A stretch of DNA of 26,138 bases from a virus, in IMG/VR virus record IMGVR_UViG_3300025120_000470, positions 1-26,138 of that record; one strand, written 5' to 3'. The notes under the pieces were generated by a model. The model made no database searches and was not told the DNA's origin. It was given only the letters and a program-made list of their open reading frames with translations. Below, one piece after another: positions 1-12,383 of the stretch; the stretch's first letter is position 1, and every line of letters starts with the position of its first letter. Made by a program: the position numbers and the translations under genes.

Positions 1-96
1 GAAACCATTGTCTATCCATTGAACTAATTCTTCAACAGTAGTGCCGAAAAACTCTGCACGTTTGTTTAGAACTGTCATTGCACCTTTGATACGCAT
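1..96 (-). CDS. Hypothetical phage protein, C-terminus beyond window edge
   Basis: The first 32 residues read leftward from an ATG at 94-96 without a stop and run off the window edge, so the protein is incomplete. A good Shine-Dalgarno (AAGGAG, about 7 nt upstream) fixes the start. The visible part begins MRIKGAMTVLNKRAEFFGTT and continues with an amphipathic helix-like stretch. I do not recognise a family. It lies directly downstream of the 118-aa conserved protein on the same strand (11-nt gap), so the two are probably cotranscribed from the promoter at 507-535. Confidence 0.7.
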   Translation of the reverse strand, partial: MRIKGAMTVLNKRAEFFGTTVEELVQWIDNGF

Positions 97-4088: not shown

Positions 4089-4787
4089 ATGATGAATATT
4101 GATTATGTATTTCCTCACCCCATAGGTGAGATGAGTTTACTAGAAAAAGTAGACAATGATAAAATCAAAGAAACAATAGAAAACCTATCATCAGACATAG
4201 ATGAACATACTGGCGCAAGAGTTTGGGACTGTAAAGTAAAAACATCTTTTGAGAATGATGCCTTGTCAATGGAATTCACAAAACGTCATTCAGACTTTTT
4301 AGAAGTAGTTAACGAAGCAGTCAATCAATACATGGTTCAGGTTGGTTGGTACGAACCTTCTAAACCGAATAAAGTTACTCAATGTTGGTGGAACAAGTAT
4401 GACGAAAGTCATCACTTTCAAGAAGCACATCATCATGGTGTGCATGAAGTCTGTGCAGTTTATTATGTAACAAATGATACTATACCTACTTGCTTTCATA
4501 ATCCTAACTATTATACAGTACAAAGTCGATATGATAATACTCCTGGTGGAGAAACAGAAGTTACGCAGAGATTGCATGAGAAATTTGCAACGGCAGGAAC
4601 TTTGATTATATTCCCTGGTTATATGATGCATTCAGTACCATATATTAGAAAAGGTAAATATCAAGATAGTGATTTGATGCAAAAGAATAGAATTACTATT
4701 GCCATGAACTTTCATAAATATGAACAAGACTTATTGACAAGAATAGAAGAAGACCCTAATCAAATTCACATAAAGTTCGCCGAATGA
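4089..4787 (+). CDS. Putative 2OG-Fe(II) oxygenase (TIGR02466-like), second copy
   Basis: A 232-aa protein of the same broad class as the gene at 597-1166 but clearly divergent. The metal-binding area is HHHGVHEVCAVYYV (about residues 114-127), then a PGGETEV insertion, LIIFPGYMMHSVPY with the distal His and RITIAMNFH with the 2OG-anchoring Arg. I chose ATG 4089 because GGATGA lies about 7 nt upstream; GTG 4077 (overlapping the previous stop) and ATG 4092 are alternatives. It is probably cotranscribed with the KOW-like gene. The substrate is unknown. Confidence 0.72.
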   Translation: MMNIDYVFPHPIGEMSLLEKVDNDKIKETIENLSSDIDEHTGARVWDCKVKTSFENDALSMEFTKRHSDFLEVVNEAVNQYMVQVGWYEPSKPNKVTQCWWNKYDESHHFQEAHHHGVHEVCAVYYVTNDTIPTCFHNPNYYTVQSRYDNTPGGETEVTQRLHEKFATAGTLIIFPGYMMHSVPYIRKGKYQDSDLMQKNRITIAMNFHKYEQDLLTRIEEDPNQIHIKFAE

Positions 4788-4793
4788 TTATTG

Positions 4794-4834
4794 CCATAAA
4801 AAGACTTGACAAATGTAAACAACTAGAGTATAGT
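4794..4834 (+). promoter_or_regulatory. Sigma70-type promoter of bS21 gene with shared 19-nt block (leaderless)
   Basis: The block ccataaaaagacttgacaa (4794-4812) is identical to one at 12343-12361. TTGACA (4806-4811), a 17-nt spacer and TATAGT (4829-4834) place +1 at about 4841-4842, i.e. on the ATG of the bS21 gene, so the transcript would be leaderless. No Shine-Dalgarno precedes the ATG. Confidence 0.75.
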
Positions 4835-4841
4835 GTGTAGT

Positions 4842-10080: not shown

Positions 10081-10105
10081 TTTGATACGGCAGAAGGAGA
10101 ATGCT

Positions 10106-11197
10106 ATGCCACCTCGTAATCATAAGCAGTGGTCATCTGCACCACAAGTAGAAGCAATCAGTAGTGCTTGTTATAATAGTTTTGAAATCCATCAACAAGA
10201 ACAAGATAAAATCTTTTCTAAAGTTTGGGTTCCCATGTGTCACAAATCAGAGATGCCAAATGCAGGTAATTTTAGAACGACACAAATTGCAGGCGTTAAT
10301 ATTATTGCAGTCAATAACGGCGATACAATTAAGTCTTATCTGAATACAGGTAAGATTAATACACCTTCAGGAACAATGACTAGAGTAGAATTCCTAATGA
10401 ATGATTATAAGGAATTATATACAGAAGTTAAACACGGAGGTATGGTGTGGACAACTCTAAACGAAAACCCCACACAGTCAGTAGAAGAATGGACTGCAGG
10501 TGCATTTGATTGTATTGCAGACGCAATCGACACAGAAGAATTAGAAGTCTTTCACTATCATAAGGCAGTGATTAATACAAACTATAAATTGTGGCATGAC
10601 ACAAACAGTGAATTCTATCACGACTTCATGCATTACTTTAATAGAGTATCAGGATTCAACGATGAATATTTCGCTAGAAAGAATATTCCTTTTGATAACG
10701 GTCATGTTAATGTTAGTAGTTTTACTGTTAATTATGAAGAGTATTCAGGATTTGAAGATAGAGGGGAATTATCTTTTCCCAATCTGCCGCCCAACCAGTG
10801 GTACATGGTTGACCTCTTTCCAGGATTCAACTTTAACCTCCGTGGGAGTGCATATCGTTCAGACGCAGTGACACCACTAGGTCCGAATAAAGTTCTGATT
10901 GAGTTTCGTGGATATGGATTGTTAAGTGATACGAAAGAAGAAAGACTAACTCGTATCAATCATCATAATTCTATATGGGGTCCTTTTGGTCGCAACTTGC
11001 ACGAAGACTTGATTGGTGTTGCTGGTCAAGGTGTAACAATGCGTGAAGGTACAGAAGCAAGAAACATTCTTCATGGTAGACATGAGAACAGTACAATACA
11101 TGATGAAGTCGGTATGAGACATTACTATAGTGAATGGGGAAAGTATTTAGATATTGATCCATATTTTTCAGAAAAAGTACTTGACAAAGTTGCTTGA
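10106..11197 (+). CDS. Rieske-type oxygenase alpha-subunit homologue lacking Rieske cluster ligands
   Basis: A 363-aa protein laid out like a Rieske non-heme iron oxygenase. Residues 23-80 (YNSFEIHQQEQDKIFSKVWV, then CHKSEMPNAGNF and an N after SYL) match the N-terminal Rieske domain. The catalytic domain shows NYKLWHDTNSEFYHDFMHYF (about 159-178, candidate iron ligands His172 and His176) and HEDLIGVAGQG (Asp301). The CxH...CxxH ligands of the [2Fe-2S] cluster are missing: where the first pair should follow residue 80 there is TGKINTPSG, and the second place reads EVKHGGMVW with one His and no Cys. Electron delivery must therefore differ, or the function has changed. AAGGAG fixes the start; the longer frame from TTG 10082 is less likely. 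Confidence 0.78.
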   Translation: MPPRNHKQWSSAPQVEAISSACYNSFEIHQQEQDKIFSKVWVPMCHKSEMPNAGNFRTTQIAGVNIIAVNNGDTIKSYLNTGKINTPSGTMTRVEFLMNDYKELYTEVKHGGMVWTTLNENPTQSVEEWTAGAFDCIADAIDTEELEVFHYHKAVINTNYKLWHDTNSEFYHDFMHYFNRVSGFNDEYFARKNIPFDNGHVNVSSFTVNYEEYSGFEDRGELSFPNLPPNQWYMVDLFPGFNFNLRGSAYRSDAVTPLGPNKVLIEFRGYGLLSDTKEERLTRINHHNSIWGPFGRNLHEDLIGVAGQGVTMREGTEARNILHGRHENSTIHDEVGMRHYYSEWGKYLDIDPYFSEKVLDKVA

Positions 11198-11211
11198 GTA
11201 TGATATAAATA
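11181..11211 (+). promoter_or_regulatory. tmRNA promoter: sigma70-type with overlapping late box
   Basis: TTGACA (11181-11186), a 17-nt spacer and TATAAA (11204-11209) lie in the last codons of the Rieske-type gene and just beyond it. The -10 is itself part of TATAAATA (11204-11211), the T4 late box. The predicted start at about 11216 coincides with the first paired base of the tmRNA acceptor piece (11217). Confidence 0.75.
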
Positions 11212-11280
11212 AGATTACAGTTTGTTGATACAATCTGAATGACGGACAGGACGAGGGTGCGATACCCTCCGCCTCCACCA

Positions 11281-11400
11281 TAATTACTTGAGGACAATAT
11301 GTTTGATAGACTAACAGAGTTTTTTATAAAACTTTTTAAGATACACGAAATTCCACCAGTAAGATATCTATCAGGTGTTGGTAAATCGAGTAATTATGAT
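11281..11400 (+). other. tmRNA intervening segment between acceptor and coding pieces
   Basis: These 120 nt separate the acceptor CCA (11278-11280) from the mature 5' G (11401). In two-piece tmRNAs such a segment is cut out of the precursor by end-processing nucleases (RNase P at the new 5' end; a 3' endonuclease or exonucleases after CCA). Here it also contains a ribosome site and ATG of a 47-codon ORF. Confidence 0.75.
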
Positions 11401-11442
11401 GGGGGCGAAATAGGATCGACTGACGTAGATAAGAAAGAGTAG
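11299..11442 (+). CDS. Candidate 47-aa ORF through the tmRNA intervening segment
   Basis: ATG 11299 has TTGAGGAC at ideal spacing and opens a frame starting MFDRLTEFFIKLFKIHEIPP, continuing VRYLSGVGKSSNYDGGEIGS and stopping at TAG 11440. About two thirds lies in the intervening segment and the last 14 codons lie inside the tmRNA coding piece, including the acceptor strand. The amphipathic N-terminus resembles other tiny ORFs of this phage. Translation and tmRNA folding of the same molecule would compete. It may equally be a chance ORF. Confidence 0.45.
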   Translation: MFDRLTEFFIKLFKIHEIPPVRYLSGVGKSSNYDGGEIGSTDVDKKE

Positions 11443-11482
11443 AACTGTCGGGTGACTGCGTAATTGGTCAAACACTACAAAC

Positions 11483-11527
11483 GCAAACGATAACTTTGCA
11501 CATTCAGAATACGCCCTAGCGGCATAA
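11483..11527 (+). other. tmRNA tag reading frame (ANDNFAHSEYALAA)
   Basis: Resume codon GCA at 11483 begins 14 sense codons A-N-D-N-F-A-H-S-E-Y-A-L-A-A followed by TAA 11525-11527. The C-terminal YALAA is the classical ClpXP/FtsH degron, and the ANDNFA start resembles alphaproteobacterial tags such as that of Caulobacter. The 3' part of the frame contributes to helix P5, as in bacterial tmRNAs. Confidence 0.92.
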
Positions 11528-11529
11528 TC

Positions 11530-11569
11530 TGAGGGGTTGGTCACTTACCTTGCAACAGAAAAGTGACAC
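11530..11569 (+). repeat. 40-bp direct repeat, copy 1 (tmRNA terminal pseudoknot)
   Basis: An exact 40-bp repeat with copy 2 at 11848-11887. Within it GTCACTT (11540-11546) pairs with AAGTGAC (11561-11567) and GAGG (11531-11534) with CCTT (11548-11551), giving a canonical H-type pseudoknot (loops of 5, 1 and 9 nt). This copy directly follows P5 of the tmRNA. Confidence 0.9.
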
Positions 11570-11611
11570 ACACACATACACAAGTATGCGTGACACACAC
11601 ATACACACAAG
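11563..11611 (+). repeat. Imperfect CA-rich 22-bp direct repeat pair
   Basis: Two closely similar 22-mers at 11563-11584 and 11590-11611 both start gtgacacacacac/gtgacacacacat and end acacaag, separated by 5 nt. They link the end of the tmRNA to the ribosome site of the next gene and look like a local duplication or slippage product. Confidence 0.7.
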
Positions 11612-11621
11612 GAGAAATAGT

Positions 11622-11840
11622 ATGAGTAATCCATTCGATTTACGCTTCTCAATGATTGAGAGTGCTAAACAAATTCTAATAGAACAGTATCACACTGACT
11701 GTGGACATCTAAAAGAGAAATACTTTGCAGAACTGGAAAGAGGACTAGATGTTCAGTTTCCTGAACTGCCAACATTTCCAACATTCGGAGATATCAGTAA
11801 CCTGGCAAATGAGATGAACTCTTTCGTTTCACAACGCTAA
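11622..11840 (+). CDS. Small conserved phage protein (72 aa) between the 40-bp repeats
   Basis: The protein starts MSNPFDLRFSMIESAKQILI and ends ISNLANEMNSFVSQR, a helical 72-aa form with a Pro-rich PELPTFPTF linker. It resembles a small family I recall from marine T4-like phages (NPF-L/V-RF near the N-terminus, FVS(K/Q) at the C-terminus); function unknown. AAGGAG precedes the ATG. It lies between the two exact 40-bp copies of the tmRNA pseudoknot, ending 7 nt before copy 2, so it may have entered the locus with, or been isolated by, that duplication. Confidence 0.72.
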   Translation: MSNPFDLRFSMIESAKQILIEQYHTDCGHLKEKYFAELERGLDVQFPELPTFPTFGDISNLANEMNSFVSQR

Positions 11841-11847
11841 CTAATAA

Positions 11848-11887
11848 TGAGGGGTTGGTCACTTACCTTGCAACAGAAAAGTGACAC
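11848..11887 (+). repeat. 40-bp direct repeat, copy 2
   Basis: Identical over 40 bp to 11530-11569, 318 bp downstream, and able to form the same pseudoknot. It sits between the small 72-aa gene and the membrane protein gene. Here no tag frame precedes it. Confidence 0.9.
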
Positions 11888-11904: not shown

Positions 11905-12336
11905 ATGTATAGAATAACTGGTTACTTCAAAAATCATGTTGTAGTGAGATACTACGCTGACAAATATGATGCAATAGATTTCAAAGATACTATAGATGCA
12001 CACTACCCTTTGAAAGTAACATTTGAACAAGGAGTATATCCAATGAGAACTTTTATTGTGAATTCTTGGAATTCAATTATGAATGCTGACTTTAACCCAC
12101 TCAGAAACATTCCTGACTTACAGGTACGACATTTAGTATTACAAGTACTTGCTTGGATGTGGTGCATCGTATTTGCTTTTATTGTAGGTAGTTGGACTGC
12201 TTTCGGTATTAGTGCAGTAGTTCATGTTCTACTACTTGCCGCAATCGCAATCACAGTAGGAACATTTGAAACTGCCAGACGCAATCCTCAGTACTTCGGT
12301 GGACTAGGAAGAGCAAACGGCGGCGAACACGAATAA
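11905..12336 (+). CDS. Two-span membrane protein, possibly with an extra N-terminal domain
   Basis: From ATG 11905 the frame encodes 143 aa. Residues 1-46 (MYRITGYFKNHVVVRYYADK...) form a small soluble-looking domain. From Met47 the sequence MRTFIVNSWNSIMNADFNPL, then IPDLQVRHLVLQVLAWMWCI and further hydrophobic stretches resembles a conserved membrane protein of marine T4-like phages with two membrane helices (roughly residues 78-98 and 103-125). Met47 (ATG 12043) has its own strong GGAG at 8-nt spacing, so either the long protein or a 97-aa protein, or both, may be made. The frame also opens at GTG 11881 within repeat copy 2, less likely. Ends GGEHE. Confidence 0.65.
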   Translation: MYRITGYFKNHVVVRYYADKYDAIDFKDTIDAHYPLKVTFEQGVYPMRTFIVNSWNSIMNADFNPLRNIPDLQVRHLVLQVLAWMWCIVFAFIVGSWTAFGISAVVHVLLLAAIAITVGTFETARRNPQYFGGLGRANGGEHE

Positions 12337-12342
12337 CTTTCA

Positions 12343-12383
12343 CCATAAAAAGACTTGACAATCTAACCTAAATGGAGTATAAT
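12343..12383 (+). promoter_or_regulatory. Sigma70-type promoter of SleB-like gene with shared 19-nt block (leaderless)
   Basis: The 19-nt block at 12343-12361 is identical to that before the bS21 gene. TTGACA (12355-12360), a 17-nt spacer and TATAAT (12378-12383) place +1 at 12390, exactly the A of the ATG. No ribosome site precedes the ATG. Confidence 0.8.

Follow-up and report, generated by a model that had tools for sequence, protein, structure and literature searches.

A permuted two-piece tmRNA of a pelagimyophage-like virus as a probable carrier of exchangeable small genes

The plus-strand locus at 11216-11569 of the window (the whole 26,138-base virus record analyzed here, a metagenomic fragment) is, with certainty as far as its sequence can tell, a circularly permuted, two-piece tmRNA of the alphaproteobacterial type, a sequence feature of known kind. 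We consider it probable that this complete tmRNA doubles as a gene carrier, with exchangeable genes in the intervening segment (IVS) between its two pieces and with downstream gene cassettes bounded by copies of its terminal pseudoknot. In comparisons among related phages, both the gene-bearing, exchangeable IVS and the pseudoknot-bounded cassette appear well supported.

A complete permuted tmRNA in a T4-like marine phage

Using cmscan, two Rfam covariance models matched the locus above their gathering thresholds and over their full lengths: tmRNA_permuted (RF04321), the merged permuted model that comes from a 2025 tmRNA database paper (PMC11915505), at 11220-11527 (115.4 bits, gathering 47, E 3.5e-22), and alpha_tmRNA (RF01849) at 11177-11570 (110.3 bits, gathering 50, E 1.3e-29). 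ARAGORN called a permuted tmRNA in the window as well, with a tag reading frame at 11483-11527 that encodes ANDNFAHSEYALAA (11483-11524), ends in a hydrophobic degron and is closed by a stop codon (11525-11527); across the other loci, a large share of those that do carry a tmRNA received no ARAGORN call. The acceptor piece (11216-11280) ends in an encoded CCA (11278-11280) and lies 5′ of the coding piece (11401-11569), which runs from GGGGGCG to the terminal pseudoknot, an order found likewise in related viral tmRNAs. Pairing of the 3′ strand CGCCUCC-A-CCA (11270-11280; stem 11270-11276) with GGGGGCG (11401-11407) forms an acceptor stem with G3-U70, the T arm is GAGGG/CCCUC, and the coding piece closes with the pseudoknot GGGU..GUCACUU ACCU..AACAGAA AAGUGAC. 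The fold of the acceptor piece, the IVS and the start of the coding piece together has a z-score of -4.4. A preliminary description of this DNA had proposed a phage-borne circularly permuted alpha-type tmRNA, and the Rfam matches, ARAGORN, the fold and the pseudoknot pairs bear out every feature of it that can be tested on sequence; its coordinates and its anatomy, from the acceptor stem with G3-U70 through the T arm, CCA and tag to the terminal pseudoknot, proved right. The ORF within the IVS, the 13-bp helix that closes the IVS and an exact second copy of the pseudoknot, all taken up below, were not part of that description.

Its assignment to a T4-like phage also holds, with a gp32 that is 58% identical to that of Pelagibacter phage HTVC008M and with PhoH, ThyX and a gp5 baseplate domain in the neighborhood of the tmRNA; judged from these genes, the window phage is pelagimyophage-like. 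Whether such RNAs had been described in related phages, which the preliminary description could not say, is answered by the available text of the 2022 Melnitz paper (PMC9004378). It reports a two-piece permuted tmRNA in the Methylophilales phage Melnitz and 53 two-piece structures among phage genomes, nearly all of them aquatic, and relates these RNAs to alphaproteobacterial tmRNA and to pelagimyophages. The window region matches Melnitz ssrA at 76%, and the two are RNAs of the same type from related marine T4-like phages. The Melnitz tag is ANDNYVPVDYALAA, and a glutamine riboswitch is predicted in the 3′ part of Melnitz ssrA, again according to the available text (PMC9004378), whereas Rfam finds none in the window.

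The tmRNA might instead be a degenerate, nonfunctional passenger taken from a host, given that gene transfer commonly occurs at ssrA and that no SmpB was seen for the phage in the records searched. We regard this as very unlikely, since the acceptor stem, G3-U70, CCA, tag frame and pseudoknot are all intact, the promoter is conserved, and the pseudoknot sequences vary among phages yet remain complementary. In a structure-aware scan, 251 of 311 phage tmRNAs had helix 2 of the pseudoknot, with 14 different complementary 4-mer pairs among them; the detector itself demands pairing, so the evidence lies in the sequence variety of helix 2 and not in the pairing rate.

The conserved promoter is represented in the window by a promoter-like TTGACA-17 nt-TATAAA site at 11181-11211, read from the sequence, which overlaps a T4-type late motif, TATAAATA. 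This motif lies upstream in 169 of 246 distinct phage tmRNA regions (6.6 in shuffles), and TTGANN-16..18-TATAAN in 139 of the 246. A generic promoter scan that requires T as the last base of the second hexamer did not return the 11181-11211 site. Elsewhere in the window, a perfect sigma-70 consensus (TTGACA-17-TATAAT) is found at 12355-12383, 5′ of an endolysin-like gene and within a 58-nt repeat also present at 4781-4838. From the conserved early/late-type promoter, a single precursor of the tmRNA would be transcribed.

The tags in the Pelagibacter genomes found in this analysis are ANESYAIAA and ANESYALAA, so with ANDNFAHSEYALAA the phage has a tag of its own. Unusually long tags of 29 aa, such as ANDNALSNVTFVDFSAPVTAVNEDFALAA, were noted in four other loci (L074, L087, L096 and L097). 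The SmpB family PF01668 had no match in 11 related phage records (the largest 216 kb, several fragmentary, and the window itself a fragment), and host SmpB would therefore have to serve. With SmpB and AlaRS supplied by the host, the mature tmRNA would add ANDNFAHSEYALAA to stalled proteins, and the phage tmRNA may control or replace host ribosome rescue, as the preliminary description proposed.

Genes nested in the intervening segment

Between CCA and GGGGG, the window carries an IVS of 120 nt (11281-11400), the proposed gene slot, which is expected to be removed at maturation and which varies among phages with identical tmRNA cores. For comparison, we assembled a viral set from contigs sharing the 20-base start of the coding piece and contigs from a pseudoknot pattern scan (131 tmRNAs with both pieces), and a bacterial set from alphaproteobacterial genomes with the same 20-mer (118 tmRNAs with both pieces). 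IVSs of at least 100 nt were present in 59 of the 131 viral tmRNAs versus 1 of the 118 alphaproteobacterial ones; phage IVSs had a median length of 87 nt and reached 500 nt, while the median for the bacteria was 34 nt, the longest IVS being 117 nt. Among the 50 distinct phage IVSs of at least 100 nt, a single ORF spans at least 75% of the segment in 35, versus about 4 (3.1 + 1.1) in dinucleotide shuffles. No such excess over shuffles was seen for IVSs of 60-100 nt, and about half of the phage tmRNAs have a short IVS and no ORF. The largest nested gene seen, in L020, occupies a 500-nt IVS and encodes a 120-aa homologue of the protein encoded at 11905-12336 of the window.

In an enlarged locus set, ORFs of at least 25 codons were found in 111 distinct IVSs and fell into approximately 35 families by BLASTP clustering. 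This set takes in loci fetched by IVS-family DNA patterns, so the comparison to quote is the one between 131 viral and 118 bacterial tmRNAs, which predates those loci. The stop codon lies inside the coding piece for 34 of the 111 ORFs, and stops in general cluster within 15 nt of the coding-piece start or just beyond it, positions that appear largely dictated by the tmRNA sequence.

The window IVS holds a 47-codon ORF (11299-11442, MFDRLTEFFIKLFKIHEIPPVRYLSGVGKSSNYD...) with GAGGA upstream and its stop inside the coding piece. It belongs to a family (F2) with homologues in the IVSs of five other phages (L432, L444, L454, L475 and L506) in the same Shine-Dalgarno (SD) context, and a related family (F3) includes the IVS ORF of the cultured phage Melnitz (MFKWLSKTRLVVITRDYF...). 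That ORF is not annotated in the Melnitz record, and the available text of PMC9004378 makes no mention of it. For F2, pN/pS is 0.45 in frame versus 0.70 and 1.53 out of frame with only five usable sequences, which taken alone is moderate evidence of selection. The signal is stronger in the two largest families, which appear to be under strong purifying selection: F0 (MKNPLVREVSKWMFKAYIVWSICADITLLAGIIYLVFF, with one hydrophobic segment) has a dN/dS of 0.17 in frame versus 1.29 and 1.47 out of frame (0.24-0.29 in frame with the search pattern excluded), and F1 (MDEVILWEFRKELVKWICINNYSPRHARL...) has a pN/pS of 0.35 in frame versus 1.74 and 1.14.

Relatives of these short proteins were gathered by degenerate DNA patterns. 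The F0 pattern matched 120 viral contigs: in 61 the match is flanked by both tmRNA pieces, in 22 it follows an acceptor piece but the start of the coding piece is a variant one, and in 9 it has only a coding piece after it. The other 28 matches lie elsewhere, and many of them are free-standing, in-frame genes that have a stop codon of their own. Family F1, too, is found outside tmRNAs as an ordinary gene with its own stop, once directly 3′ of a tRNA-Gly gene, and in one locus (L386) an F1 ORF apparently extends out of the IVS and across the coding piece in the reading frame of the tag (...ANDESYALAA). Searches with tblastn found neither F0 nor F1 in the isolates of the phage collection, and for the IVS proteins tried, PHROGs and Pfam gave no function, with F0 producing just a below-cutoff match to DUF2542.

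The tmRNA could be ordinary and the window ORF a chance open frame in a neutral spacer. The window IVS is just 120 nt long, the last codons of its ORF are read from conserved tmRNA sequence, the pN/pS of its own family is not decisive, and IVSs of 60-100 nt show no excess of ORFs. We consider this explanation unlikely in view of the long-ORF excess over shuffles at 100 nt and above, the strong purifying selection acting on F0 and F1, the homologues of the window ORF that other phages carry behind the same SD context, and the related ORF in Melnitz.

Exchange of intervening segments and precursor maturation

Conserved tmRNA sequence bounds the IVS on either side, and the genes within it are consequently exchanged among phages. 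The tmRNA cores of three phages are identical over 225 compared nucleotides, yet one has an F1 ORF in its IVS (L073), one an F2 ORF (L109) and one a 33-nt IVS with no ORF (L131); overall, the IVS class differs in 56 phage pairs with more than 93% core identity, in several lineages. Comparison of the window with L141 gives an identity of 99.0% for the upstream region, 100% for the acceptor piece and 99.4% for the coding piece; the IVSs of this pair are unrelated, while the converse applies to the window and L132, which have identical IVSs between tmRNA pieces of 95% and 97.6% identity. Differing IVSs on near-identical cores, and the converse, are the pattern expected from homologous recombination in the flanking tmRNA pieces, which is the most likely route by which IVS genes would pass between phages.

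A structural feature accompanies the segment. In the window, the ends of the IVS are predicted to form a 13-bp helix (11279-11291 with 11386-11398) that closes the IVS and extends the acceptor stem, on which it stacks; the fold of 11270-11408 has a z-score of -6.1. Among long phage IVSs, 91% have their ends joined by a helix of at least 8 bp; the share is 67% for shorter phage IVSs and 42% for those of bacteria, versus about 5% (5.5%) for shuffles. This closing stem is a widespread property, and it would hold both tmRNA pieces together whatever the cargo.

In the proposed maturation, the acceptor and coding pieces of the precursor would pair, with the IVS ends paired atop the acceptor stem, and host tRNA-processing enzymes would release the two-piece tmRNA, RNase P acting at the 5′ end of the coding piece and 3′ processing occurring at CCA. 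For permuted tmRNAs, processing by RNase P and a 3′-end enzyme is established (Keiler et al. 2000, as cited in the available text of PMC11915505). The excised IVS, or else unprocessed precursor, would double as a short mRNA for a small phage protein.

Alternatively, the IVS ORF could be mainly regulatory, with ribosome entry or failed processing setting the level of mature tmRNA and the peptide itself hardly mattering. The closing helix of the window extends into the SD region, so that translation and maturation could be mutually exclusive, and the clustering of stops around the coding-piece start would also fit such a device. This reading strikes us as improbable because F0 and F1 show protein-level selection and have stand-alone homologues, because the stop positions are largely a product of the tmRNA sequence, and because the near-identical phage L131 does without an ORF.

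A further idea builds on the position of the stops. In the window ORF and in families F1, F2 and F3, the stop lies in the coding piece, and if the IVS is excised before translation, the stop codon is lost and a non-stop message results. The nested gene and the tmRNA might then form a self-sensing circuit in which RNase P cleavage creates a non-stop IVS mRNA whose product is tagged by the same tmRNA. If so, the small protein would build up only once rescue capacity is exhausted, and ArfA offers a parallel for accumulation under such exhaustion. Since the tmRNA sequence largely determines where the stops fall, we offer this circuit as a hypothesis only and consider it quite unlikely; our preferred reading is that the IVS is a slot for exchangeable protein genes.

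Pseudoknot-bounded cassettes and known systems

The last 40 nt of the tmRNA, the terminal pseudoknot (11530-11569), recur exactly (40/40) at 11848-11887 with no tmRNA attached, at a spacing of 318 nt. The 318-bp cassette so defined contains a single ORF of 72 aa (11622-11840) and no integrase, and is followed by a gene for a 143-aa protein (11905-12336) whose relatives are encoded beside other phage tmRNAs and inside the L020 IVS. Between the tmRNA and the 72-aa ORF lies an imperfect, ACACACAT-rich 22-nt repeat (11563-11611). An assembly artefact is conceivable, since a 40-nt exact repeat can mislead assemblers and the window is a 26-kb metagenomic fragment. This is highly improbable, given that L131, a different contig, shows this arrangement too, with a cassette that is 98.9% identical and has its own substitutions, that the architecture recurs with other genes and diverged pseudoknots in L023, L115, L282, L323 and others, and that L051 also has an exact repeat. 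The cassette is absent in other relatives: in five phages (L109, L073, L136, L139 and L141), only one pseudoknot is present, and the sequence that comes after copy 2 in the window adjoins it directly, so a cassette-free site exists in nature, and the cassette may have been gained in the window line or else lost in the L109 line.

Weak homologues of the 72-aa ORF product (approximately 27% identity, E 3e-4 to 0.01) are encoded 3′ of tmRNAs in five loci (L065, L083, L086, L094 and L029), and neither Pfam nor PHROGs gave a match. Identification as T4 gp33, the late-transcription coactivator, was prompted by Melnitz gene order and was set aside as unproven, with no BLASTP alignment to Melnitz gp33 and no Pfam or PHROG match.

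A structure-aware scan found the order tmRNA-gene-pseudoknot in 12 records with three kinds of gene: the 72-aa ORF (the window and L131), a conserved gene for a winged-helix protein with the Pfam domain HTH_39 directly 3′ of the tmRNA (L023, L346, L031, L101, L115, L274, L350, L282 and L323), and a ring-hydroxylase-like gene 3′ of the tmRNA, bounded by exact pseudoknot repeats (L051). The window has its homologue of this last gene at 10082-11197, just 5′ of the tmRNA. Most pseudoknot matches at a distance from tmRNAs were weak A+T-rich stems such as a reversed-sequence control also yields (8 per 5 Mb); we left these extra matches out of the count. In the HTH_39 group, the stand-alone second pseudoknot differs in sequence from the tmRNA's own and both helices are nevertheless kept, which suggests that the second copy is under selection. 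It may be a 3′-end stabilizer, a terminator or a mere recombination seam. As for a promoter inside the repeated pseudoknot, only a 9/12 match overlaps copy 2, and the total is not above shuffles. Our favored interpretation is that the terminal pseudoknot would have been turned into a repeat that bounds downstream gene cassettes.

T4-type mobile regulatory cassettes (PeSLs) consist of a repeated, RNA-structured element with an early promoter that bounds exchangeable single genes. The window-type pseudoknot copies similarly flank exchangeable genes of three kinds, but here the repeat is a tmRNA pseudoknot and no promoter above chance lies inside it. Genomic islands integrated at ssrA (for example, the available text of PMC3146451) share with the window an insertion at the 3′ part of the tmRNA gene and a direct repeat of that part; in contrast, the window cassette is a single gene in a lytic-type phage, without an integrase, and the exact repeat is the whole pseudoknot. 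With alphaproteobacterial two-piece tmRNAs, the window RNA shares the acceptor-IVS-coding order, the acceptor stem, T arm, CCA, tag frame and terminal pseudoknot, and it differs in residing in a phage, in its long and gene-bearing IVS, in its own tag and in the extra pseudoknot copy.

The phage two-piece tmRNA is thus already known, and as far as we found, a cargo-bearing IVS has not been described: a literature search with thin coverage of subscription journals returned no paper on ORFs in a tmRNA intervening segment. If our reading is correct, a precursor segment that a stable RNA gene discards would serve as a swappable slot for protein genes, which for tmRNA is undescribed as far as found, and a set of small phage proteins would sit unannotated within "non-coding" RNA genes. 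It would become possible to test how one transcript serves both translation and RNA maturation and by what means lytic phages swap single genes around conserved RNA structures, and the cultured phage Melnitz, with an ORF in its IVS, makes such tests practical.
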